A stretch of DNA of 64,000 bases from Glycomyces artemisiae. Its GTDB lineage: Bacteria; Actinomycetota; Actinomycetes; Mycobacteriales; Micromonosporaceae. A model generated the notes under the pieces. The model did no database searches and was not told the origin of the DNA. It saw nothing but the letters and a program-made list of their open reading frames with translations. Below, one piece after another: positions 43,838-60,356 of this stretch. Numbering within the stretch: the first letter of the stretch is position 1; every line of letters begins with the position of its first letter. The position numbers were made by a program, and so were the translations under genes. The stretch lies in assembly GCF_003002955.1 (NCBI RefSeq), contig NZ_PVTJ01000006.1, positions 1 to 64,000 of the forward strand. Reading direction: 5' to 3'.

Positions 43838-45511
43838 TGCTCGCCGGATACGACGCCCTCATCACCACGATCGCGCTCGGCGCGATCCTCGCCTACTCCT
43901 TCCACGTGGTCCTCATGGCCGGGCAGCTCAGCCTCGGCCAGGCCGGGTTCGCGTCCCTCGCGGCCTACGTCTCGACGCTCGTGGTCCCGACCGAGCCCAT
44001 CGCCGGATCGATCTCCCCCGTCATCGTGGGCCTGCCCATGGGGGCGCTCGTCGGCGCCGCCGCCGCGTTCGTCGTGGGCCTGCCGGTGCTGCGCCTGCGC
44101 GGCGTGTTCCTCGCTATCGCGACCATCGCGTCCGCGGAGATGATCCGCGTGCTCATCAACAACGCCGAGTGGACGAACGGCGCCCTCGGCATGCGCCTGG
44201 ACCGGTGGGTGACCTTCGACTTCGCGTGGGCCGTCGTCGCGGTCCTCGCGTACCTGTTCTGGCGGCTCGGGCCCTCCCGCTCGGGCCGCGCGTTCGCCGC
44301 CGTCCGCGAGGACGAGCTCGCCGCCGGGTCCATGGGCGTCGACGTCGCCCGCACCCGCATGGCCTCGTTCGTCGCCTCCGGCGCCATCGCCGGCGTCTAC
44401 GGCGTCATGTTCGCGTACTTCTTCGGCCGCATCACGCCCGTCTCGTTCGACTTCAGCCTCACCGTGAGCGGCCTCGTCACCGCAGTCCTCGGCGGCTACC
44501 TCGTGTTCTTCGGTCCCGTCCTCGGCGCCGTGTTCCTCGGCGCCGTCCCGGAAGTGCAGAACGCCCTCGGCCTCGAAGCGGGCTGGATCCACCCGCTCGT
44601 CACCGGCGTGCTCCTGCTCGCCGTGATCCTGTTCCTCCCCGGCGGCCTGTCGACCCTGTTCGCGCGGCTGCGACCCGCGCCGGCGCGGCCCGGCCCCGAC
44701 TACGCGCCCCTCGACGCCCTCGACCCGCTCCCCGACCCCGGGACGCCCCTCGCCTCCGTGACCGGCCTCGCCAAGAGCTACGGCGCCGTCAACGCCGTGC
44801 GCGGCGTCGACCTGGAGATCCGCGCCGGGGAAGTCCTCGGCGTCATCGGCCCCAACGGCGCCGGGAAGACCACCCTCGTCAACATGATCTCCGGCCTCGA
44901 ACCCCCCACTGCCGGAGAGGGAACCGTCCTCGGCGTCCCGATCGGCTCGCGCCCCCACCGCTTCGCGCAGGCCGGGGTGAGTCGGACCTTCCAGCACTCC
45001 AAGCTGTTCGAGCGCCTCACCGTCCTCGACAACGTCCTCGTCGGCACGCACGTCGTCAGCCGCTCCACGTACCTGCGCCGCCTCCTGTGGCTCCCCTCGG
45101 CCCGCCGCGACGAGCGCCGCGCCCTCGCGCTCGCCTGGGCCCAGCTGGAACGCGTCGGCCTCGCCGACCGCGCCGCCGCCCGCCCCGGCGCCCTCTCCTA
45201 CGGCGACCGCCGCCGCCTGGAGATCGCCCGCGCCCTCGCGGCCCACCCCACCCTGCTCATCCTCGACGAGCCCGCCGCGGGCATGAACCACGTCGAGGCG
45301 CTCGAACTCGCCGGGCTCATCCGCGGCCTCGCCGACGACGGCGTCACCGTCCTGTTCATCGAGCACAACGTGAAGATGGTCCTCGACGCCTGCACCCGCC
45401 TCGTCGTCCTCGACTTCGGCGAGGTCATCGCCGAGGGCGAGCCGCGCGAGGTCGCCGCCGACCCGCGGGTCGTCGAGGCGTACCTGGGCACCGAGCACGA
45501 GGAGTCCGAAC

Positions 45512-45519
<8 letters not shown>
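43837..45519 (+). CDS. LivM-LivG fusion: ABC importer permease joined to ATPase
   Basis: A 560-residue protein. Residues 1-275 are a LivM-type permease (MAGQLSLGQAGFASLAAYVS; docking loop GRAFAAVREDELAAGSMGVDV). A Pro/Asp-rich linker at about 280-310 leads to a LivG-type ATPase (Walker A GPNGAGKTTLVN, Walker B LLILDEPAAGMNHVEA, His switch FIEHNVKMV). The signature region reads ALSYGDRRRLEIARAL, the form usual in LivG. ATG 43837 has AGGGAGGT three bases upstream. Fusion fixes the stoichiometry of one permease with one ATPase. Confidence 0.9.
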
Positions 45520-46222
<703 letters not shown>

Positions 46223-46250
46223 CGCCGCGCCCGCCGAAGGAACCCCTGAG

Positions 46251-48779
46251 ATGAACGATGAGCTAGCCGAGTCCCCGCCTTCGCAGTCGAAGCGGCGCCC
46301 GCGCGGCGGCCCCTGGTCCCGCATGAGAATCCGGACCAAGCTGACGATCATGCTGCTCGTCCCGGCGCTCACCCTGGCCGGGATGGTAGCGCTCCGCCTG
46401 GTCGAGTCGGCGGACGAGGCGCGCGACATCGGCGCGACCGCCGACGCCGTCGAGCTCGCCCGGGACGTCAACGCCGTGATCGTCGCGATCCAGGCCGAGC
46501 GCAAGGACGCCGCCCGGCTCGTGTACCAGGAGCAGACCGGCGTCACCGACGTCGAGTCCATCCAGAACTCGTTCGCGGGCAACGAGACCGACACCGGCGC
46601 GGCGCTCGACGCGCTCGCCGCGACCCGTGCCTCCCTCGCCCTCGACGACGAGTCGGAGGCGCTCCTCGACCGCGCCGACGCGCCGCTGGAGCGGCTCGGC
46701 ATCGCCCGCGAGGCCGTCCGCGACGGCTCCGTCGCCGCCGTCCACCTCACGGTGTACAACTCCGTGGTCTCCCGCCTCGCGGCCGTCCTCGACCACGTCG
46801 TCGACCTCGCCGGGACCTCGGAGCTGACCCGGACCGTGCGCACCGCCGCGCTCCTGGCCGCGATCGACGAGTCCTCCGAGCAGATCCGCATGCTCGTGCT
46901 CTCGCTCGAAGACGGCCGCCCGCTCGCGGGCAAGCACCGGACCTTCATGCGGCTCACCGCCGCCCGCGAGGAGTCCCTCGCCGAGTACCGCCGCATGCTC
47001 GCCCAGACCGACCCCGACGCCGCCGTCTTCGAGGTGGGCGGCCTCGGCGCCGCCGACGCCCGCGAGGCCAACGCGTTCGAGAGCACCATCGCGGGCTCGC
47101 GATCCGACGAAGAGCAGGAGGTCGAGCACTACGCGCTCATGGCCGCGTACGACGCCCGCCACGCGGCGACCACGGAGCTCGTGACCGCCTCGTTCGACGA
47201 GGCGACCGCGGAGGCCGAAGCCGTCAGCGCCGCCGCGATCCGAAGGCTCGCAACGGAATCGATCATCGCGATCGTGGCGCTCGCCATCGCGTTCCTCATC
47301 GCGTTCACCATCGGCCGCTCGGTCACGCGGGGTCTGCGCGACCTGTCGGGCTCGGCCCGGCAGATCGCCATGGTCGACCTGCCGCAGGCCGTCAAGCGCG
47401 TCGACCAGCAGCAGGGCCTCGGCGGGCTCAGCCCGTTCGAGTACGCCGCCCGCACGACCCCGCCCATGCAGGTCCGCGGCGACGACGAGCTCAGCGAGGT
47501 CGGCGAGGCGTTCAACATCGTCCACCGCGAGGCCATCCGCGTCTCCGCGCAGCAGGCGCTCCTGCGGTACCACGTCGGCGCGATCTTCGTGCGCCTCGCC
47601 CGCCGCGGCCACTCGCTCACCGGGCGGCTCACCGCCGAACTCGACGCGGCGGAGCAGAACGAGCAGGACCCCGAGCGGCTCCAGCGGCTGTTCCGCCTCG
47701 ACCACCTCGCGTCGCTCATCGGGCGCGCCAACGACTCCCTGCTGGTCCTCGGCGGCTCCTCGGCCGCGAAGGTCCGCACCACCGACGCCTCGCTCGACGA
47801 CGTGCTCATCGCGGCCCAGAGCCGCATCGAGTACTACACGCGCATCGAGGCCGCGGCCGACGAGGGCGCGTGGGTCAAGGCCGACCACGTCGACGACGTC
47901 GTGCAGCTCCTCGCCGAGCTCATGGACAACGCCACCCGCTATTCGGAGTCGGCCGCCGAGATCACCGCCCGGGTCCTCACCGGGAAGGTCATCATCCAGG
48001 TGCGCGACCACGGCATCGGCATCGAGCCCGACCGGATGGAGCGGTTCAACGACCGCCTCCGCCGCGATACCCCGGTGGACCTGGAGGCCATGCAGGCCAT
48101 GGGGCTCACCGTGGTCGGCTTCCTCGCCGGGCGGCACGGCATCGAAGTCGAGCTGCGGCCCTCGATCGGCGGCGGCGTCGTCGCCGAGATCGCCGTGCCC
48201 GGCACGCTGCTCTCGTTCACCCCGCCGCCGCGCAGCCAGCGCCCGGAGAACCTCACGGGCACCGCGGCCGGGGCGCGGACCGTGCCGCTGCCGCGGCCCC
48301 GCCGCAACGCTCCGCTGTTCGGCCGCCCCGACGGCGCCGACGCCGCGCCGCCCCAGGTCCCGGGGCAGCGTCAGCCCGCCAAGCACGTTGCGCCCGAACC
48401 GAAGGCGCTCCCCGCGGGTCCGAGCCCGCGTGTCTCCGCTGTGGACGACACGCGCCCGCTCCCGGTACTCTCCTCCTCGACGACGGCCGTGCTCTCCGAG
48501 CTCCCGGAGATCAAGTTCGACGTGACCGTGGTGCACGCCGACCCGTCCCTGCGGGCCGGTCATGCACTGCCCCAACCGAAGAAACCGCCCGCGTTCGGGC
48601 CGAACGGCCTGCCGCGGCGGGACCCGATGACGAATCTGGTCCCCGGCGCGGTCGCCCCCAGCCCGGGTCAGGACGGCATGGTCATCGAGCGCAACCCCCG
48701 GAGCATCGGCGCGACGTACTCCGCGTACGCCCGCGGCCTTTCGAGCAGCAGGACCGCTGGACCCCAAAATGAGAAATGA
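46251..48779 (+). CDS. NIT-domain sensor histidine kinase-like protein (CvnA-like)
   Basis: An 842-residue membrane sensor. A helix at about 29-48, a large extracytoplasmic NIT (nitrate/nitrite-sensing-like) domain at about 50-330, a second helix at about 335-358, a HAMP-like linker and an ATPase domain with ELMDNATRYSE and DHGIGIEPDRM. The dimerisation region RRGHSLTGRL to RLDHLASLIGRANDSLLVLGG is the conservon type. A 200-residue Pro-rich tail follows. In Streptomyces conservons, CvnA works with CvnB, CvnC and the GTPase CvnD; only CvnB follows here. It is 28 bases after the ABC transporter genes, which suggests a shared transcript and signal. Confidence 0.85.
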   Translation: MNDELAESPPSQSKRRPRGGPWSRMRIRTKLTIMLLVPALTLAGMVALRLVESADEARDIGATADAVELARDVNAVIVAIQAERKDAARLVYQEQTGVTDVESIQNSFAGNETDTGAALDALAATRASLALDDESEALLDRADAPLERLGIAREAVRDGSVAAVHLTVYNSVVSRLAAVLDHVVDLAGTSELTRTVRTAALLAAIDESSEQIRMLVLSLEDGRPLAGKHRTFMRLTAAREESLAEYRRMLAQTDPDAAVFEVGGLGAADAREANAFESTIAGSRSDEEQEVEHYALMAAYDARHAATTELVTASFDEATAEAEAVSAAAIRRLATESIIAIVALAIAFLIAFTIGRSVTRGLRDLSGSARQIAMVDLPQAVKRVDQQQGLGGLSPFEYAARTTPPMQVRGDDELSEVGEAFNIVHREAIRVSAQQALLRYHVGAIFVRLARRGHSLTGRLTAELDAAEQNEQDPERLQRLFRLDHLASLIGRANDSLLVLGGSSAAKVRTTDASLDDVLIAAQSRIEYYTRIEAAADEGAWVKADHVDDVVQLLAELMDNATRYSESAAEITARVLTGKVIIQVRDHGIGIEPDRMERFNDRLRRDTPVDLEAMQAMGLTVVGFLAGRHGIEVELRPSIGGGVVAEIAVPGTLLSFTPPPRSQRPENLTGTAAGARTVPLPRPRRNAPLFGRPDGADAAPPQVPGQRQPAKHVAPEPKALPAGPSPRVSAVDDTRPLPVLSSSTTAVLSELPEIKFDVTVVHADPSLRAGHALPQPKKPPAFGPNGLPRRDPMTNLVPGAVAPSPGQDGMVIERNPRSIGATYSAYARGLSSSRTAGPQNEK

Positions 48780-50382: not shown

Positions 50383-51934
<1,552 letters not shown>

Positions 51935-51935
51935 C

Positions 51936-53816
<1,881 letters not shown>

Positions 53817-53875
53817 GTCCTTCGTCCAATAGGGAGATGTGGCTGGTTCGACATGCGGCGTCGTTCCCCGGGCAG

Positions 53876-53937
53876 AAAAAATCGCCCGCGTGCTAGGACG
53901 CACGGGGCGAGCGCACCGTCAAGGAACGACGGTGCGC
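53876..53937 (-). terminator. ilvBNC attenuator: pause hairpin and rho-independent terminator
   Basis: On the minus strand, right after the leader stop, a perfect 10-bp hairpin (arms 53911-53920 and 53928-53937, 7-nt loop) is followed by a second hairpin (TCGCCC 53882-53887 and GTGC 53890-53893 paired with GCAC 53900-53903 and GGGCGA 53905-53910) and six T residues (53881-53876). ilvB starts 60 bases further on. This is the layout of a classic ribosome-mediated attenuator. The antiterminator pairing was not computed. Confidence 0.75.
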
Positions 53938-54020
53938 TAGGTAAGTACTACGACGAGCGGCCGGGCGGCGAGGGCCTCGGTCGCGTTCTGGTCGTAGTTC
54001 TGCTGCGGCACGCCCCCCAT
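53937..54020 (-). CDS. ilvB leader peptide (27 aa) ending LVVVLT
   Basis: A 27-residue reading frame, MGGVPQQNYDQNATEALAA followed by RPLVVVLT, from ATG 54020 to TAG 53939-53937. Five of the last six residues before the stop are Leu or Val (CTC GTC GTA GTA CTT), the products of the ilv pathway, so ribosome stalling here would report branched-chain amino-acid supply. The stop codon touches the first attenuator hairpin. TTGACT at 54047-54042 could serve as -35, but I found no good -10. Confidence 0.72.
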   Translation of the reverse strand: MGGVPQQNYDQNATEALAARPLVVVLT

Positions 54021-54043
54021 GATTCACGATTCCGGCCCGTGAG

Positions 54044-56761
54044 TCAACTTTTCTCAGACTCCGGGACGTCGCTCGGCGTGTCGCGGGGCCCGGGCACGTC
54101 GTACGGCCCGGACGGGAGGGCCCTGGGCTCCTCGGTGAGCCAGCGCGTCAGGTCGTCGGGGTCCATGGGCTTGGCGAGCAGGTAGCCCTGCACCAGTGGG
54201 GCTTCGGCGGCGATCATGGCGTTGAGCTGGAGGTCGGTCTCGACGCCTTCGGCGATGACCTCCATGCCGAGGATGCGGCCGAGGGCGACGGTGACGGCGG
54301 CGAGGGGGCCGACGCCGCCGTCGTCCTTGGCGATGAGGTCGCGGTCGATCTTGAGGATGTCGACGGGGAGGCGGTCGAGCTGGCCGAGGGAGGAGTACCC
54401 GGATCCGAAGTCGTCCAAGGCGATCCGCACGCCCGCGCCCCTCAGAGCGCCGAGCTGGGCGATGAGGGTGTTCATCTGGTGGGAGAAGTCGTGCTCGGTG
54501 ACTTCGAGCACGAGGCGCTTGGCGGGGACGCCCGCGGCGATGAGCGCGGTGTTGACCTCGGTGGCGAACAGGTGGGTGTGGAGCTCCTTGACGGAGACGT
54601 TGACGGAGATCCAGGCTTTGATGCCGCCGTTGGCCCAGGCGGCGAGCTGCTCGGCGGCGCGGTTGACGGTCCACACGGCGAGGTCCTGGGTGAGGCCGGA
54701 CTCGGTGGCGGCGGGGATGAACTCGGCGGGGCTGACATGGCCGAGCCGGGGGTGGTGCCAGCGCATGAGAGCCTCGGCGCCGACGATGGAGCGGTCGGCG
54801 GTGGAGAAGACGGGCTGGTAGACGAGGCGGAGCTCGTCGCGGAGGATGGCGCCGCGCAGCTCTTGGGACAGCTCGTTCTTGCGGCGCACGACGCGGTCGA
54901 ACTCGGCGTCGTAGGTGGCGTAGCGGTTCTTCCCGGCCTGCTTGGCGGCGCGCAGGGCGAGGTCGGCGTTGCGCAGGAGCAGTTCGGGGTCGCCGAGTCC
55001 CTCTGCGGCGGTGGCGATGCCGACCGAGCCGGTGACGAAGACGGTGGACTCGTCGTGGAACTCGTACGGCTCGCCGAGGCGGGCGACGAGCGCCTTGGCG
55101 GTGGCGACGGCCTCGGCCCGGCTGGCGCGCAGCAGTATCGCGAACTCGTCGCCGCCGAGGCGGGCGCCGACGTCGGTGGGGCGCAGGAGTTCCTTGATGC
55201 GGCGGGAGACCTCGACGAGGAGCTCGTCGCCGAAGTCGTGGCCGCGGGTGTCGTTGACGTTCTTGAAGCCGTCGAGGTCGAGCAGGAGCAGGGCGGTCTG
55301 GTGCTCTTCGGCGGCGACGCCGTCTTCGAGGCTCTGGAGGAGCGCCCGGCGGTTGGCGAGGCCGGTGAGGGGGTCGGAGTAGGCCATGCGGGCGAGCTCG
55401 GTCTCCAGGCTCCTGCGGGCGCCGACGTCCTCGACGCGGGCGACGAGGGCGCGCACCTGGGGGCGGCCGCGGAGGTCGGAGACGACGGTCTCGGTGTGGC
55501 GCCAGCGGCGGGAGGCGTCGCGGACGCGGACGTTCAGGGAGACCTGGCCGGTGTGGCTGAGGCCGTCGAGGAGGGTGCGCAGGTCCTCGGCGGTGTGGCG
55601 GCGGTCGTCGACGTGGACGAGGTCGAGGAAGGACTCGCCGAGGCAATCGCCCGCTTCGGTGGCGGGCCGCCACGCGGAGTCCTCGGGGTGCCAGGTGACC
55701 TTGAGCTCCTCGTCGAGGACGAGGACGGTGTCGGAGGCGACGCCGACGATCGCGGAGAGGCGGCGCTGCCGGGCCGCGGCCTCGCCGGTGACGCGTCTGA
55801 CGTCGAAGTAGGTGAGGACGAGGCGGGCGCCGAGGGCGCCGACGGCGGCGAGGCCGAGGAGGGCCGCGTCGAGCGGGAGCGCGCCGCGGGTGGCGCCGTT
55901 GATGAGGACGGTGGCGGCGGCGAGGGCGCCGGCCCCGGCCATGACGGTGTAGTGGACGCCGGGGTAGTTGGGCTTGTCGATCGGGGCGGGCTTGTGGCGG
56001 CGGGCGGCGAAGTAGGTGACGCCGAGGAGGGCCGCGCAGGTGGCGACCCAGGCGACGGACCACCACAGGACGCGCTCCTCGGGGCGCAGCCACTGCCAGG
56101 CCACGAACGTGGACAGGCCGGTGAAGTGGACGGCGAAGACGGCGAGGTACGCGGAGGCGTGGCGGCGGCGCCAGCGCTGGATGCGGAAGGTGGTGGTGAA
56201 GCCGACGCCGAGCATGACGATCCCCATCATGCCGGGGATGACGATGGCGAGGTCGCCTTCGCCGAGGGGGCCGCGCATCTGCGCGAACAGGGGGCGCGCG
56301 AACAGGGTCCAGGCGAAGAAGAGCACGCAGAGGCCGACGAAGGAGCCGTCGACGAGGCGCCGCTGGACCGCTTGCGGGGCCCAGCCGCGGTCGGGCAGGC
56401 GCAGGAGGGCGAGGGCCCAGAGGACGACCGCCGCGGCGAACCCGGACCCGGCGACGGCGTCCCCCGCGGGGTCGGGGAGCCAGACCGCGGCGGCGAAGGA
56501 CGCGGCCATGGTCTGGATGCCGGCGGCCATGAGCTGGTAGGTGGTGCGGCGGCCCGCCTCGATGCGGCGGGCGGCGCGCCACATGAGCGATCCGGCGCAG
56601 GCGGCGCCGATGGAGCCGAGGGCGGCGGCGGTCCCGGGTGCGATGGTCCCGAACGCGGTGTCGAGGGCGACGGCGACGGCCGCCGCGAGCACGGAGCACC
56701 ACACTGCGGCGGTCGCGGTCCACGACAGCGATTGCCGGACGCGACGGGGGGTTGGCGTCAT
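54044..56761 (-). CDS. Membrane-bound GGDEF-EAL cyclic-di-GMP protein
   Basis: A 905-residue protein with about ten membrane helices (1-320), a PAS-like domain (about 335-455), a GGDEF domain with intact LGGDEFAILL, preceded five residues earlier by an RPTD product-inhibition site, and an EAL domain with AEALMRW, NVSVKEL, DDFGSGYSSL and AEGVET. Both synthesis and hydrolysis of cyclic-di-GMP look possible. The tail is Pro-rich. In Streptomyces such proteins (CdgB/RmdA class) affect differentiation. It lies just upstream of the ilv leader in the same direction but is separated from it functionally. Confidence 0.9.
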   Translation of the reverse strand: MTPTPRRVRQSLSWTATAAVWCSVLAAAVAVALDTAFGTIAPGTAAALGSIGAACAGSLMWRAARRIEAGRRTTYQLMAAGIQTMAASFAAAVWLPDPAGDAVAGSGFAAAVVLWALALLRLPDRGWAPQAVQRRLVDGSFVGLCVLFFAWTLFARPLFAQMRGPLGEGDLAIVIPGMMGIVMLGVGFTTTFRIQRWRRRHASAYLAVFAVHFTGLSTFVAWQWLRPEERVLWWSVAWVATCAALLGVTYFAARRHKPAPIDKPNYPGVHYTVMAGAGALAAATVLINGATRGALPLDAALLGLAAVGALGARLVLTYFDVRRVTGEAAARQRRLSAIVGVASDTVLVLDEELKVTWHPEDSAWRPATEAGDCLGESFLDLVHVDDRRHTAEDLRTLLDGLSHTGQVSLNVRVRDASRRWRHTETVVSDLRGRPQVRALVARVEDVGARRSLETELARMAYSDPLTGLANRRALLQSLEDGVAAEEHQTALLLLDLDGFKNVNDTRGHDFGDELLVEVSRRIKELLRPTDVGARLGGDEFAILLRASRAEAVATAKALVARLGEPYEFHDESTVFVTGSVGIATAAEGLGDPELLLRNADLALRAAKQAGKNRYATYDAEFDRVVRRKNELSQELRGAILRDELRLVYQPVFSTADRSIVGAEALMRWHHPRLGHVSPAEFIPAATESGLTQDLAVWTVNRAAEQLAAWANGGIKAWISVNVSVKELHTHLFATEVNTALIAAGVPAKRLVLEVTEHDFSHQMNTLIAQLGALRGAGVRIALDDFGSGYSSLGQLDRLPVDILKIDRDLIAKDDGGVGPLAAVTVALGRILGMEVIAEGVETDLQLNAMIAAEAPLVQGYLLAKPMDPDDLTRWLTEEPRALPSGPYDVPGPRDTPSDVPESEKS

Positions 56762-56857
56762 CCACTGGTCCGATCGTAGGAAGCCTCGTGCATTACAGGA
56801 TGCCGCATGGTCCGCCGTTTCCGTCTCGGGCCCTCCGCGATTCCAGTCCGCGTCCGG

Positions 56858-58405
56858 TCAGTCGGCTCCGGGCAGGGCCTTGATGAGGCGTTCGAGGGCG
56901 GTCCGGTCGGCGAGATGGGCCGCGGCCGCCGCCTTGTCGGCCTCGGAGGCGTCGGCGCGGGCGGTGAAGAGCGCGGCGCGCAGGTCCGCCAGTTGCGCGT
57001 CGCGCTTCTCGGTCTCCTTGCGGGCCTTCTTGTCGTCGCCGCGGTACATGAGGACGGGGATGAGGACGGCGAGCGCGACGAACACGGCGGGGACCCACTG
57101 GCCGAACGCGGCGAGGGCCGCCGCGAGGGCGGCGATGACGGCGCCGGTGGCCGTGTACACGGGCTTGGAGGGGCCCTTCGTGTCGAAGTGCAGGCCGATG
57201 CGGTCTTCGAAGGCGGCGGCCTCGTCGGCGTCGTGCCCGGCGGCGGTGACGTCCACGGCACCGCCGCGGCGCTTGACGGTGACGACGGCGGGCGCGGGGG
57301 CCTCCATGGACTCCTGGAGGTGTTCGAGGCGGGCCCGCAGGAGCGGCGCGGCGAGGTCGAGTGCCAGGCGGCGCAGCGCGACCGGGGTCTCGGGCTCGAA
57401 GAGGTCGCGGCGGACGAGGGCCGCGACGGTCCCGGCGGGCTCGGCCCAGGTGGGGCGGGAGCGGTCGGGGCCGTCGTCGAAGCCGAGGGATTCGATCTCG
57501 CCGACGATCGGCAGCTCGGCGGGGCTGGGTTCCTCGATGAGCTCTTCGAGGTAGCGGCGCCAGCGGCCGTCGCGGCGGTCGAGGTCGGCGAGGTCGACCG
57601 GCTCGGGCTCGGCGGCGAGGTGGACGCGCAGGGCGTTGAACGCTTCGGCCGCAACGGTTCCCGTGCCGAGGATCGCCGCGTCCCAGGCGGCGGTCTCCTC
57701 GTCGTCGAGCTTCTCGGGGTCGAACAGCTCGCGCAGGCGCCCGGTGAGCTGGACGGCCGCGTTCGGGCCGAAGGCGCCGAGCGCGGCGTGCTCCCACAGT
57801 GCGCGCCAGGCGTTCGCGACCTGCCCGTCCTCGCATTCGCCGAGGTCGGCGGGGTCGGCGATGAGCCGCAGGAACGCGGCGTCGACGAGGACGGCCTGCC
57901 CGAAGCAGCGGCCGACGGCGAGGTTGAACAGCTCGGCGCGCACGGCGTCGCGCCCGCGCGCGGCGTCGAGGCCCGTGGTCAGGTTGGCGCCCTTGGCGTT
58001 CGCGCCGGGACGGCCGCGGAACACGAGCGGGAGGATCGCGGCGGCGGCGGGCGGCAGCCAGTACCCGGGCAGGTCCGGGAGCTCCGGGAAGCGCGCGGGG
58101 CGGCCTTCGGCGAGGGCGCGGAACGCGGAGCGGATCTCCCTGCGCGCCTGATACTCGTCGAGTTCGAGGACCTGGAACCGCAGGTCGGTCCAGGTGAGGA
58201 GGAGGTCGATCCGGTCGGCGACGGTGTCGAGGCGCGACCCGACCTGCTTGAGGCCCTGGCCGATCTCGCTCTGGACGGCTTCGAGTTCGCGGCGGCGGGC
58301 CCGGCGCTCGGCGCCGATGTCGTGGTTGAGCTCGTTGATCGCGGCGGTCTGGGACCACTCCTGGCCGAAATCCGTCCAGTTCCACTGGCTGACAGTGCGG
58401 GCCAT
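56858..58405 (-). CDS. Hypothetical coiled-coil membrane protein
   Basis: A 515-residue protein that I do not recognise. The N-terminus (MARTVSQWNWTDFGQEWSQT) leads into a coiled coil (about 28-70), then a helical region to about 395, two close membrane helices at about 425-460 and a charged C-terminal coiled coil. ATG 58405 is used. Its role, between the cyclic-di-GMP protein and ilvD, is unknown. Confidence 0.65.
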   Translation of the reverse strand: MARTVSQWNWTDFGQEWSQTAAINELNHDIGAERRARRRELEAVQSEIGQGLKQVGSRLDTVADRIDLLLTWTDLRFQVLELDEYQARREIRSAFRALAEGRPARFPELPDLPGYWLPPAAAAILPLVFRGRPGANAKGANLTTGLDAARGRDAVRAELFNLAVGRCFGQAVLVDAAFLRLIADPADLGECEDGQVANAWRALWEHAALGAFGPNAAVQLTGRLRELFDPEKLDDEETAAWDAAILGTGTVAAEAFNALRVHLAAEPEPVDLADLDRRDGRWRRYLEELIEEPSPAELPIVGEIESLGFDDGPDRSRPTWAEPAGTVAALVRRDLFEPETPVALRRLALDLAAPLLRARLEHLQESMEAPAPAVVTVKRRGGAVDVTAAGHDADEAAAFEDRIGLHFDTKGPSKPVYTATGAVIAALAAALAAFGQWVPAVFVALAVLIPVLMYRGDDKKARKETEKRDAQLADLRAALFTARADASEADKAAAAAHLADRTALERLIKALPGAD

Positions 58406-58466
58406 GCGGCTGCTCCGGGTGGCTTCGAGGGAATGAGGGCGGTTTCATTCTGCCCCGGGAACGCCG

Positions 58467-58511: not shown

Positions 58512-60356
58512 TCAGTCGACCTTGCGGACGGCTCCGTCGCTCGCGGGGGTCGCCATCGACGCGTACGCCTGGAGCGCCCGGGAGACGATGCGGTCGCGGT
58601 TCACGGGCGTGTAGGGCTGCTCGCGCTTCTCCTGCGCGACCCGGCGCTGCTGGAGCACCGCGTCGTCCACTTGGAGTTCGAGCTTGCGGTTCGGGATGTC
58701 GATCTCGATGATGTCGCCGTCCTCGACGAGGGCGATGAGCCCGCCGCCGGCCGCCTCGGGGCTGATGTGCCCGATCGACAGGCCCGAGGTGCCGCCGGAG
58801 AAGCGGCCGTCGGTGATGAGCGCGCACTTGCGGCCCAGGCCGCGGCCCTTCAGGAACGACGTCGGGTACAGCATCTCCTGCATGCCGGGGCCGCCCTTGG
58901 GGCCCTCGTAGCGGATGACGACCACTTCGCCCTCGACCACGGACTTGTCGAGGATGCCCTGCACGGCGTCCTCTTGGGACTCGAAGACGTGCGCGGGGCC
59001 GGTGAACGTCCAGTTCTCCTCGGGCACGCCCGCGACCTTGACGACCGAGCCGTCCTCGGCGAGGTTCCCGAACAGGACCGCCAGGCCGCCGTCGACGGTG
59101 TACGCGTGCTCGACGGACCGGATGCAGCCGTCTTCGGCGTCGGTGTCGAGGGTCTTCCAGCGGTTCGAGGTCGAGAACGCCTGCGTGGTGCGCACGTTCC
59201 CGGGCGCGGCGTGGAACAGCTCGACCGCTTCGGGCGCGGGCGATTCGGCGCGGATGTCCCACGCGCCGAGCCACTCGTCCACCGACGCGGAGTGGATCGT
59301 GCCGACCTCCTCGTGGAGCAGGCCGCCGCGGCGCAGCTCGCCGAGGATCGCGGGGATGCCGCCGGCCCGGTGCACGTCCTCCATGTGGTACTTCGCCGAG
59401 TTCGGCGCGACCTTCGCCAGGCACGGGACGCGGCGCGAGACCGCGTCGATGTCGGCGACGTTGAAGTCCAGCTCCGCTTCGCGCGCGGCGGCCAGGAGGT
59501 GGAGGATCGTGTTCGTGGACCCGCCCATGGCCACGTCGAGGGCCATCGCGTTCTCGAACGCCGACTTGGTGGCGATCGACCGCGGCAGGACCGATTCGTC
59601 GTCGTGCTCGTAGTAGCGGCGGGCCAGGTCCATCACGGTGCGCCCGGCCTGCTCGAACAGGGCCCGGCGGGCGGTGTGCGTGGCGAGGGTCGAGCCGTTG
59701 CCCGGCAGGGCCAGGCCCAGCGCCTCGGTCAGGCAGTTCATGGAGTTCGCGGTGAACATGCCCGAGCAGGAGCCGCAGGTCGGACAGGCCTGCTCCTCCA
59801 TCTTGAGCAGCTGCGCGTCCGACACGTCGTCGTTCGCGGCCGCGATCATCGGGTCGATGAGGTCGAGCTTCTGCGTGACGATCCCGTCGCTGTCGATCGT
59901 CTTCCCGGCCTCCATGGGCCCGCCGGAGACGAACACGACCGGGATGTTCAGCCGCAGCGCGGCCATGAGCATGCCCGGGGTGATCTTGTCGCAGTTGGAG
60001 ATGCACACCAGGGCGTCGGCGCAGTGCGCGTTGACCATGTACTCCACCGAGTCGGCGATGATCTCGCGCGAGGGGAGCGAGTAGAGCATCCCGGAGTGGC
60101 CCATGGCGATCCCGTCGTCGACGGCGATCGTGTGGAACTCCTTCGAGACGCCCCCGGCCTCCGCGATGGCCTCGGCGACGATGTCGCCCATGTTCTTGAG
60201 GTGGACGTGCCCGGGGACGAACTGGGTGTAGGAGTTGGCGATGGCCACGATCGGCTTGCCGAAGTCGGAGTCGGTCATACCGGTGGCGCGCCACAGCGCG
60301 CGAGCGCCCGCCATCTGGCGGCCGTGCGTGGAAGTGCGAGAACGAAGCGCTGGCAT
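58512..60356 (-). CDS. ilvD: Dihydroxy-acid dehydratase
   Basis: A 614-residue Fe-S dehydratase that makes the 2-keto acid precursors of valine and isoleucine. Cluster cysteines lie in [11 protein letters not shown] and [19 protein letters not shown]. The [16 protein letters not shown] start and the [16 protein letters not shown] motif are standard. CAGACT six bases before ATG 60356 and GGAA in between leave open whether the message is leaderless. It is 4.7 kb from ilvBNC and has its own terminator, so it is a separate unit. Confidence 0.96.

Follow-up and report, generated by a model that had tools for sequence, protein, structure and literature searches.

A probable ribosome-mediated attenuator of compact layout in front of ilvBNC in Glycomyces artemisiae, with a complementary segment beyond its terminator

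The window analysed here is a 64,000-nucleotide stretch at the start of contig NZ_PVTJ01000006.1 of Glycomyces artemisiae, from a genome of 5.79 Mb. On its minus strand, a GGDEF/EAL gene, a promoter, a short leader and the genes ilvB, ilvN and ilvC follow one another in this order (Table 1). The attenuator candidate sits directly in front of ilvBN(C), as in actinobacterial ilvB leaders, and the IlvB encoded in the window shares 96% identity with the Glycomyces terrestris protein. An intrinsic terminator is located between the leader frame and ilvB, and 59 nt separate the end of its U-run from the ilvB ATG (53816). Two genes upstream, also on the minus strand, is ilvD (58512-60356). Its ATG is six bases past a CAGACT hexamer, so ilvD too may be leaderless; no attenuator was seen when its upstream region was inspected by reading. 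No Pfam match was obtained for two long open frames, one of 551 residues (56793-58448) and one of 554 (45425-47089), both minus.

Table 1. Features of the ilvBNC leader region in order of transcription (positions in the window).
Feature	Position	Strand	Basis
GGDEF/EAL gene, upstream of leader	54044-56761	-	
-35 hexamer TTGACT	54042-54047	-	same hexamer in 22/22 Glycomyces
-10 hexamer AATCAT, spacer 17 nt	54019-54024	-	nAnnnT at equal spacing in 23/23 Glycomyces rows (one duplicate record)
Putative leader peptide frame GTG...TAG, VPQQNYDQNATEALAARPLVVVLT, 24 residues	53937-54011	-	conserved start and stop
Control codons CTC GTC GTA GTA CTT (Leu Val Val Val Leu)	53943-53957	-	GTA GTA CTT in 22/22
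Hairpin A, 11 bp, 7-nt loop, begins in stop codon; proposed ribosome-gated antiterminator	53910-53938	-	folding; two-sided changes in the family
D partner CGTCGTTCCTTG: hairpin A loop with the upper part of its 5' arm and one base of its 3' arm	53920-53931	-	contiguous-helix test
Terminator hairpin, base 53910 common to hairpin A	53882-53910	-	folding
U-run of six (TTTTTT)	53876-53881	-	sequence
D element CGGGGAACGACG	53859-53870	-	complementary to 53931-53920, 12 bp
ilvB, acetolactate synthase large subunit	51936-53816	-	NF005860, 1097 bits
ilvN, acetolactate synthase small subunit	51413-51934	-	family search
ilvC, ketol-acid reductoisomerase	50383-51393	-	family search

Read on the minus strand, the leader frame ends CTC GTC GTA GTA CTT ACC TAG, with the stop codon at 53939-53937. 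A sequence-only reading of the window had proposed a 27-codon frame from ATG 54020 to this stop, ending in Leu-Val-Val-Val-Leu-Thr. The frame is present, and its start had to be moved: the ATG overlaps the -10 region and is found in 5 of the 22 Glycomyces genomes, whereas GTG 54011, 6-7 nt past the -10 hexamer, occurs in all 22 and gives a peptide of 24 residues. From this GTG, the Glycomyces frames are 21, 23, 24, 25 or 35 codons long, and all length changes are in-frame. The peptides mostly follow the form VPxQxY...LVVVL(T/I); LVVVL is found in 20 of the 22, and the other two carry LIVVL and LAVVL. When the related upstream regions were aligned, as that reading had proposed, GTA GTA CTT followed by one codon and TAG was identical in all 22 genomes, and the U-run hairpin was kept in each of them. 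An open frame alone is weak evidence, because another frame across the leader stretch is also open in 21 of 44 cases. The case for a translated leader rests on the conserved codons, start and stop, and the conserved codons together with the in-frame length changes indicate translation.

Codons were counted across six long frames within the window, namely ilvB, ilvN, ilvC, ilvD, the GGDEF/EAL gene and one 554-residue frame of no identified family. GTA accounts for 2 of 277 Val codons and CTT for 5 of 290 Leu codons. Both are scarce in these frames, yet GTA GTA CTT is invariant in the Glycomyces leaders. Rare codons with scarce tRNAs would sharpen the sensitivity of a sensor.

The conserved GTG is so close to the promoter that there is no space for a ribosome binding site, and the leader mRNA is therefore probably leaderless, with transcription starting at or next to GTG 54011. 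In Corynebacterium glutamicum, transcription is described as starting one nucleotide from the leader start codon (excerpts of PMC11857589), and a reannotation of Streptomyces lividans lists ilvL as leaderless (excerpts of PMC8079986). The -35 hexamer encloses the TGA stop (54046-54044, minus) of the upstream GGDEF/EAL gene. The 17 bases of the promoter spacer (54025-54041, minus; CACGGGCCGGAATCGTG) are nearly invariant among the 22 species and hold short inverted repeats such as CACG-N9-CGTG, and several relatives have CTCA-N5-TGAG there. The spacer may be an operator.

For comparison, we collected 154 ilvB upstream regions: 22 from Glycomyces, 52 from genomes elsewhere in the family and 80 from named loci, a set with some members of the family and a few duplicate records. 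The 52 come from 58 non-Glycomyces genomes, with G042, G051, G061, G066, G074 and G089 omitted because the match was weak or a contig ended there. Of the 154 regions, 146 yielded a leader and a terminator, namely 23 Glycomyces rows (one duplicate), 49 family leaders and 74 named leaders (including members of Glycomyces' own family). Eight regions gave no leader by our rule and were left out (L140, L143, L154, L038, L071, L084, L105 and L112); L071 and L084 have fewer than 60 bases upstream, and L105 has a branched-chain frame and no U-run by the rule. The total of 146 is slightly inflated because some named loci duplicate family genomes (L033=G008, L034=G062, L036=G065, L041=G077). Second DNA matches in Glycomyces (e.g. 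G000:C19, G018:C2 and G004:C32) were considered as a second leader and were treated as chance coding similarity. The second match in L032 carries a coding frame that we take to resemble the MetH cobalamin-binding region, and those in L002 and L028 read alike on the opposite strand.

We scored these leaders for a combined pattern: TTGACn and nAnnnT separated by 16-18 nt, then, 5-9 nt further on, a start codon that opens a frame with three L/V/I residues in a row. It was found in 122 of the 146 leaders (23/23 Glycomyces rows, 30/49 family and 69/74 named), with at least one of the 122 (L047) matching in the wrong frame, and in none of 2920 shuffled sequences. Counted by position and irrespective of frame, at least 69 of the 71 leaders from Glycomyces and the family have a stop triplet that includes the first base of hairpin A or lies directly next to it. 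Their peptides end, for example, in RVLI, LVVLT or LVVVLT directly before the stop, whereas the listed peptides of Streptomyces, Mycobacterium, Nocardia and Rhodococcus continue into hairpin A (e.g. ILVLGKRVG and LLVIGRRVVA). The terminal placement of the regulatory codons in the peptide, which had been thought unusual, is real and common to the relatives. Because the stop lies at hairpin A within the family and the frame reads into hairpin A in the other genera, the alignments mark terminal control codons as a character of the lineage that is not peculiar to the window genome. Nor is the leader unlike the known ones, as had been suggested: it has the same promoter-start spacing, CTCGTAGTACTT-like codons, and adjoining hairpin and terminator as actinobacterial ilvB leaders.

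The leader frame, hairpin A, the terminator and the U-run were all present in the 22 Glycomyces genomes by DNA match, the window genome included. Hairpin A is composed of AGCGCACCGTC, the loop GTTCCTT and GACGGTGCGCT, and its first base is the A of TAG. The sequence-only reading had described a 10-bp hairpin abutting the stop codon; the hairpin is real, with 11 pairs owing to an extra A-U, and it starts inside the stop codon. The second hairpin with six T before ilvB was found as described. Within Glycomyces and a single genome from another genus of the family (G049), hairpin A is nearly invariant and is therefore little informative; the terminator pairs are likewise invariant in this set, save for one unpaired cell. 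In the wider set of 71 leaders from Glycomyces and the family, two-sided changes preserve the pairing of hairpin A. For example, pair 8 is C-G in 32 and T-A in 27, and pair 9 is G-C in 35 and C-G in 22; about 10 of the 71 stems were mis-anchored in this count, which lowers the pairing counts.

The foot of hairpin A touches or overlaps that of the terminator in 127 of the 146 leaders (23/23 Glycomyces rows, 40/49 family and 64/74 named). Here we took the best hairpin 5' of the terminator among those ending no more than 4 nt from the terminator foot, and all 146 leaders had one. The gap is -1, that is one shared base, in 22 of the 23 Glycomyces rows and -5 in the remaining one; it is 0 in 50 of the 74 named leaders, and the 49 family leaders span -5 to +2. 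Of 245 shuffled sequences, 23 gave a hairpin of equal stability at the terminator foot, so the presence of hairpin A by itself is unremarkable; the two-sided changes in the family are striking. Some leaders have UUGCC or UUGGCC after the U-run. These bases are complementary to the 3' foot of the terminator, and read-through RNA could therefore unzip it.

We then have to consider how the ribosome may act on these two hairpins. In folding with a ribosome, its reach was set by assumption at 12 nt downstream, counted from the first base of the A-site codon. Hairpin A was predicted with the ribosome on the last GTA and was absent with the ribosome on the stop codon in all 12 leaders folded. At equilibrium, the outer pairs of the window terminator had a mean probability of 0.97 with the ribosome on GTA and of 0.96 with it on the stop, and they stayed at or above 0.87 at both positions in 10 of the 12 leaders. 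The values for G012 and Phytomonospora were 0.0 and 0.04 on GTA versus 0.93 and 0.79 on the stop; in these two, hairpin A removes only an extended terminator foot, and the core terminator is still predicted. In the folding check proposed earlier, hairpin A was thus predicted to be gated by the ribosome, and the terminator was kept in both positions. Since the outer-pair probabilities stay high both ways, hairpin A does not appear to displace the terminator by pairing. Neither the equilibrium folding nor the pairing of alternative stems gave a mutually exclusive antiterminator beyond the one shared base. The description of the attenuator as complete was therefore too strong. Equilibrium folding has little power here and cannot decide, because two Mycolicibacterium leaders gave 0.93-0.94 in both ribosome positions although the related M. 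tuberculosis attenuates.

Taken with the 22 of 22 conservation of its parts, the leader is likely, in our judgement, to control ilvBNC by ribosome-mediated transcription attenuation, with charged Val and Leu tRNA as the signal that is sensed, which agrees in kind with the sequence-only reading. A ribosome would begin directly on the leaderless mRNA end at or next to GTG 54011. With ample Val and Leu, it would reach the last codon or the stop and mask the 5' arm of hairpin A; the terminator could then close freely, and transcription would stop after the U-run. If Val or Leu tRNA were scarce, the ribosome would stall at the rare GTA GTA CTT. With a reach of 12 nt, a stall on a Val codon would leave most or all of hairpin A free, and a stall on the final CTT about half. 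Hairpin A would fold against the terminator foot, with its first base shared, and would hinder closure of the terminator at the RNA exit channel, so that RNA polymerase continues into ilvBNC. We take hairpin A as the ribosome-gated element and likely antiterminator, most likely hindering the terminator by contact. Homologues speak for attenuation of this kind, with the LVVI codons needed for induction in M. tuberculosis (PMC13236596) and a similar leader in C. glutamicum (PMC11857589); the codon changes reported as ineffective in Streptomyces coelicolor speak against it. The compact layout would offer a clean test of whether a hairpin at the terminator foot can block termination without base-pair competition.

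The main rival to a steric hairpin A accepts attenuation as real and takes hairpin A as a polymerase pause or anti-antiterminator hairpin. The timing between ribosome and polymerase would then decide, with a ribosome close behind the polymerase either repressing or releasing the terminator. The coexistence of hairpin A and the terminator at equilibrium is consistent with this possibility. In excerpts of the literature, the first hairpin of C. glutamicum is called both an antiantiterminator and a pause hairpin (PMC11857589), and E. coli ribosomes near stop codons are described as repressing close terminators (PMC4824070). The start of hairpin A in the stop codon and its contact with the terminator foot in most leaders fit a structural role better, and we regard a role in timing, in either form, as possible and clearly the less likely of the two. 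How the ribosome signals to the terminator is unsettled for actinobacterial ilvB leaders in general, the mode being called "unclear" in the excerpts of PMC1262725 and "underexplored" in those of PMC13236596.

It is improbable that the terminator is constitutive or partial and the short frame decorative, with a protein acting at the promoter. The nearly invariant spacer with its operator-like inverted repeats would suit such a protein, and codon changes in the Streptomyces coelicolor leader were reported to be without effect, as cited in the excerpts of PMC1262725. The invariant rare codons and the in-frame length changes argue against it, as does the codon-dependent regulation of the M. tuberculosis homologue, in which induction of ilvB1NC was abolished when the LVVI codons were changed to AAAA (excerpts of PMC13236596). 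A metabolite-binding riboswitch or T-box in place of a translated leader would suit a long and structured 5' leader and is scarcely credible, since codon conservation and length changes that keep the frame point to translation and an Rfam search of 53500-54400 returned no family at gathering score, with nine matches up to E 5 far below it.

The attenuator reading places the Glycomyces leader among known systems. M. tuberculosis ilvB1NC is alike in having, in front of an ilvB operon, a short translated frame with LVVI codons including GUA, an antiterminator masked by the ribosome at the stop, as is proposed for Glycomyces, and a U-run terminator (excerpts of PMC13236596). In the mycobacterial leaders that we compared, which do not include M. 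tuberculosis, the frame passes the control codons into hairpin A, whereas the Glycomyces peptide ends in its control codons with the stop in the hairpin foot. The ilvBNC (ilvB-II) leader of C. glutamicum, described as ilvB-II by Narunsky et al. (2023), likewise has a leader peptide, MTIIRLVVVTARRLP, and a terminator with an overlapping hairpin; it differs in that the peptide has 15 residues and the frame covers most of hairpin P1, and its antiterminator and terminator share a GCC trinucleotide whereas the Glycomyces hairpins share one base (excerpts of PMC11857589 and PMC10272879). Streptomyces ilvB leaders, such as S. lividans ilvL with MRTRILVLGKRVG, have the leaderless start that is probable in Glycomyces and the same branched-chain codons and U-run terminator (excerpts of PMC1262725 and PMC8079986); the Streptomyces peptide reads into hairpin A, whereas that of Glycomyces stops at the hairpin foot. 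Leader peptides and terminators of ilvB were predicted in Corynebacterium, Mycobacterium and Streptomyces by Seliverstov et al. in 2005 (excerpts of PMC1262725). In the open-access literature, to which our search was confined, we found no report of the Glycomyces version of the attenuator, nothing on a Micromonospora ilvB leader peptide and, as judged by title, nothing on attenuator elements downstream of the terminator. The Glycomyces leader is well conserved and probably an actinobacterial ilvB attenuator in a compact version, with one unexplained extra element, D.

The sequence-only reading had overlooked this segment, which begins five bases past the U-run and is complementary to hairpin A. 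An uninterrupted helix of 11-12 bp between D and hairpin A can be formed in 19 of the 22 Glycomyces genomes and one of 9 bp in G009; the helix is interrupted in G012 (7 pairs) and G003 (6 pairs). In G049, both strands differ from those of Glycomyces, yet 11 bp are formed in an unchanged register. Out of 2000 mononucleotide shuffles of D, the observed score was reached by 2 for the window, by 0-2 in six other Glycomyces, by 2 for G049, by 118 for G012 and by 391 for G003. Two-sided changes are seen at pairs 3 and 6 in G049 alone, and at pairs 8 (C-G, U-G, U-A and A-U) and 9 (C-G, U-G and U-A), and pairs 1, 6, 7, 10 and 12 are unpaired in 3, 1, 1, 1 and 6 of 23, respectively. Random re-pairing of the 13 distinct D strand pairs reached the observed score in 57 of 20000 trials, or 696 of 20000 when G049 was left out. 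These tests ignore relatedness, and their register was set by hand. The contiguous-helix test supports D, at the level of sequence, in Glycomyces and G049. By the same test, a D-like helix is missing in G050, five g21 genomes (scores 8-13.5) and Phytomonospora (9), where the shuffle tests of low scores cover G050, G041 and Phytomonospora. G085 has an 8-pair helix in a different register with a raw score of 19, taken without shuffle comparison.

A looser measure, the duplex energy beyond the U-run compared with shuffles, fell below p = 0.05 in 1 of 23 Glycomyces rows, 4 of 49 family leaders and 2 of 74 named leaders. Being no better than the shuffles, it fails to support D even in Glycomyces, and we rejected D as a general feature of ilvB leaders since the energies are generally at shuffle level. 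A switch at the ilvB ribosome site was rejected as well: blocking D raised the predicted openness by more than 0.05 in none of the 22 Glycomyces and lowered it in 7. A genome search for sites resembling the hairpin A loop gave 99 at up to 3 mismatches, the leader counted, and none of these was conspicuous.

D is transcribed only after the terminator has been passed and therefore can have no part in that termination event in cis. One doubtful idea is that D is a conserved anti-A element in the read-through mRNA, pairing in cis or in trans with the loop and upper 5' arm of hairpin A. If so, D in trans would let the ilvBNC mRNA bind hairpin A of new leaders, take away the antiterminator and raise termination, a feedback at the mRNA level; alternatively, the terminated leader would serve as a small RNA that targets its own mRNA. 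We know of no precedent for an attenuator with RNA-RNA feedback through a site past its own terminator. The rnTrpL RNA of Sinorhizobium is an attenuator RNA that acts in trans and would be a precedent if the terminated Glycomyces leader paired with D on other mRNAs, which is hypothetical here. The excerpts of the M. tuberculosis ilvB1NC report make no mention of a D element (PMC13236596). The pairing of D with hairpin A can exist only after read-through, and standard attenuation models need no such element. We consider D the part most worth following. In an Actinoplanes leader (L036, identical to L137), the bases past the U-run, GCTCAAGTACTGGGAC, are complementary to the region of the control codons and not to hairpin A; the stretches concerned lie roughly 105 to 55 bases ahead of the U-run and in the 30 bases that follow it.
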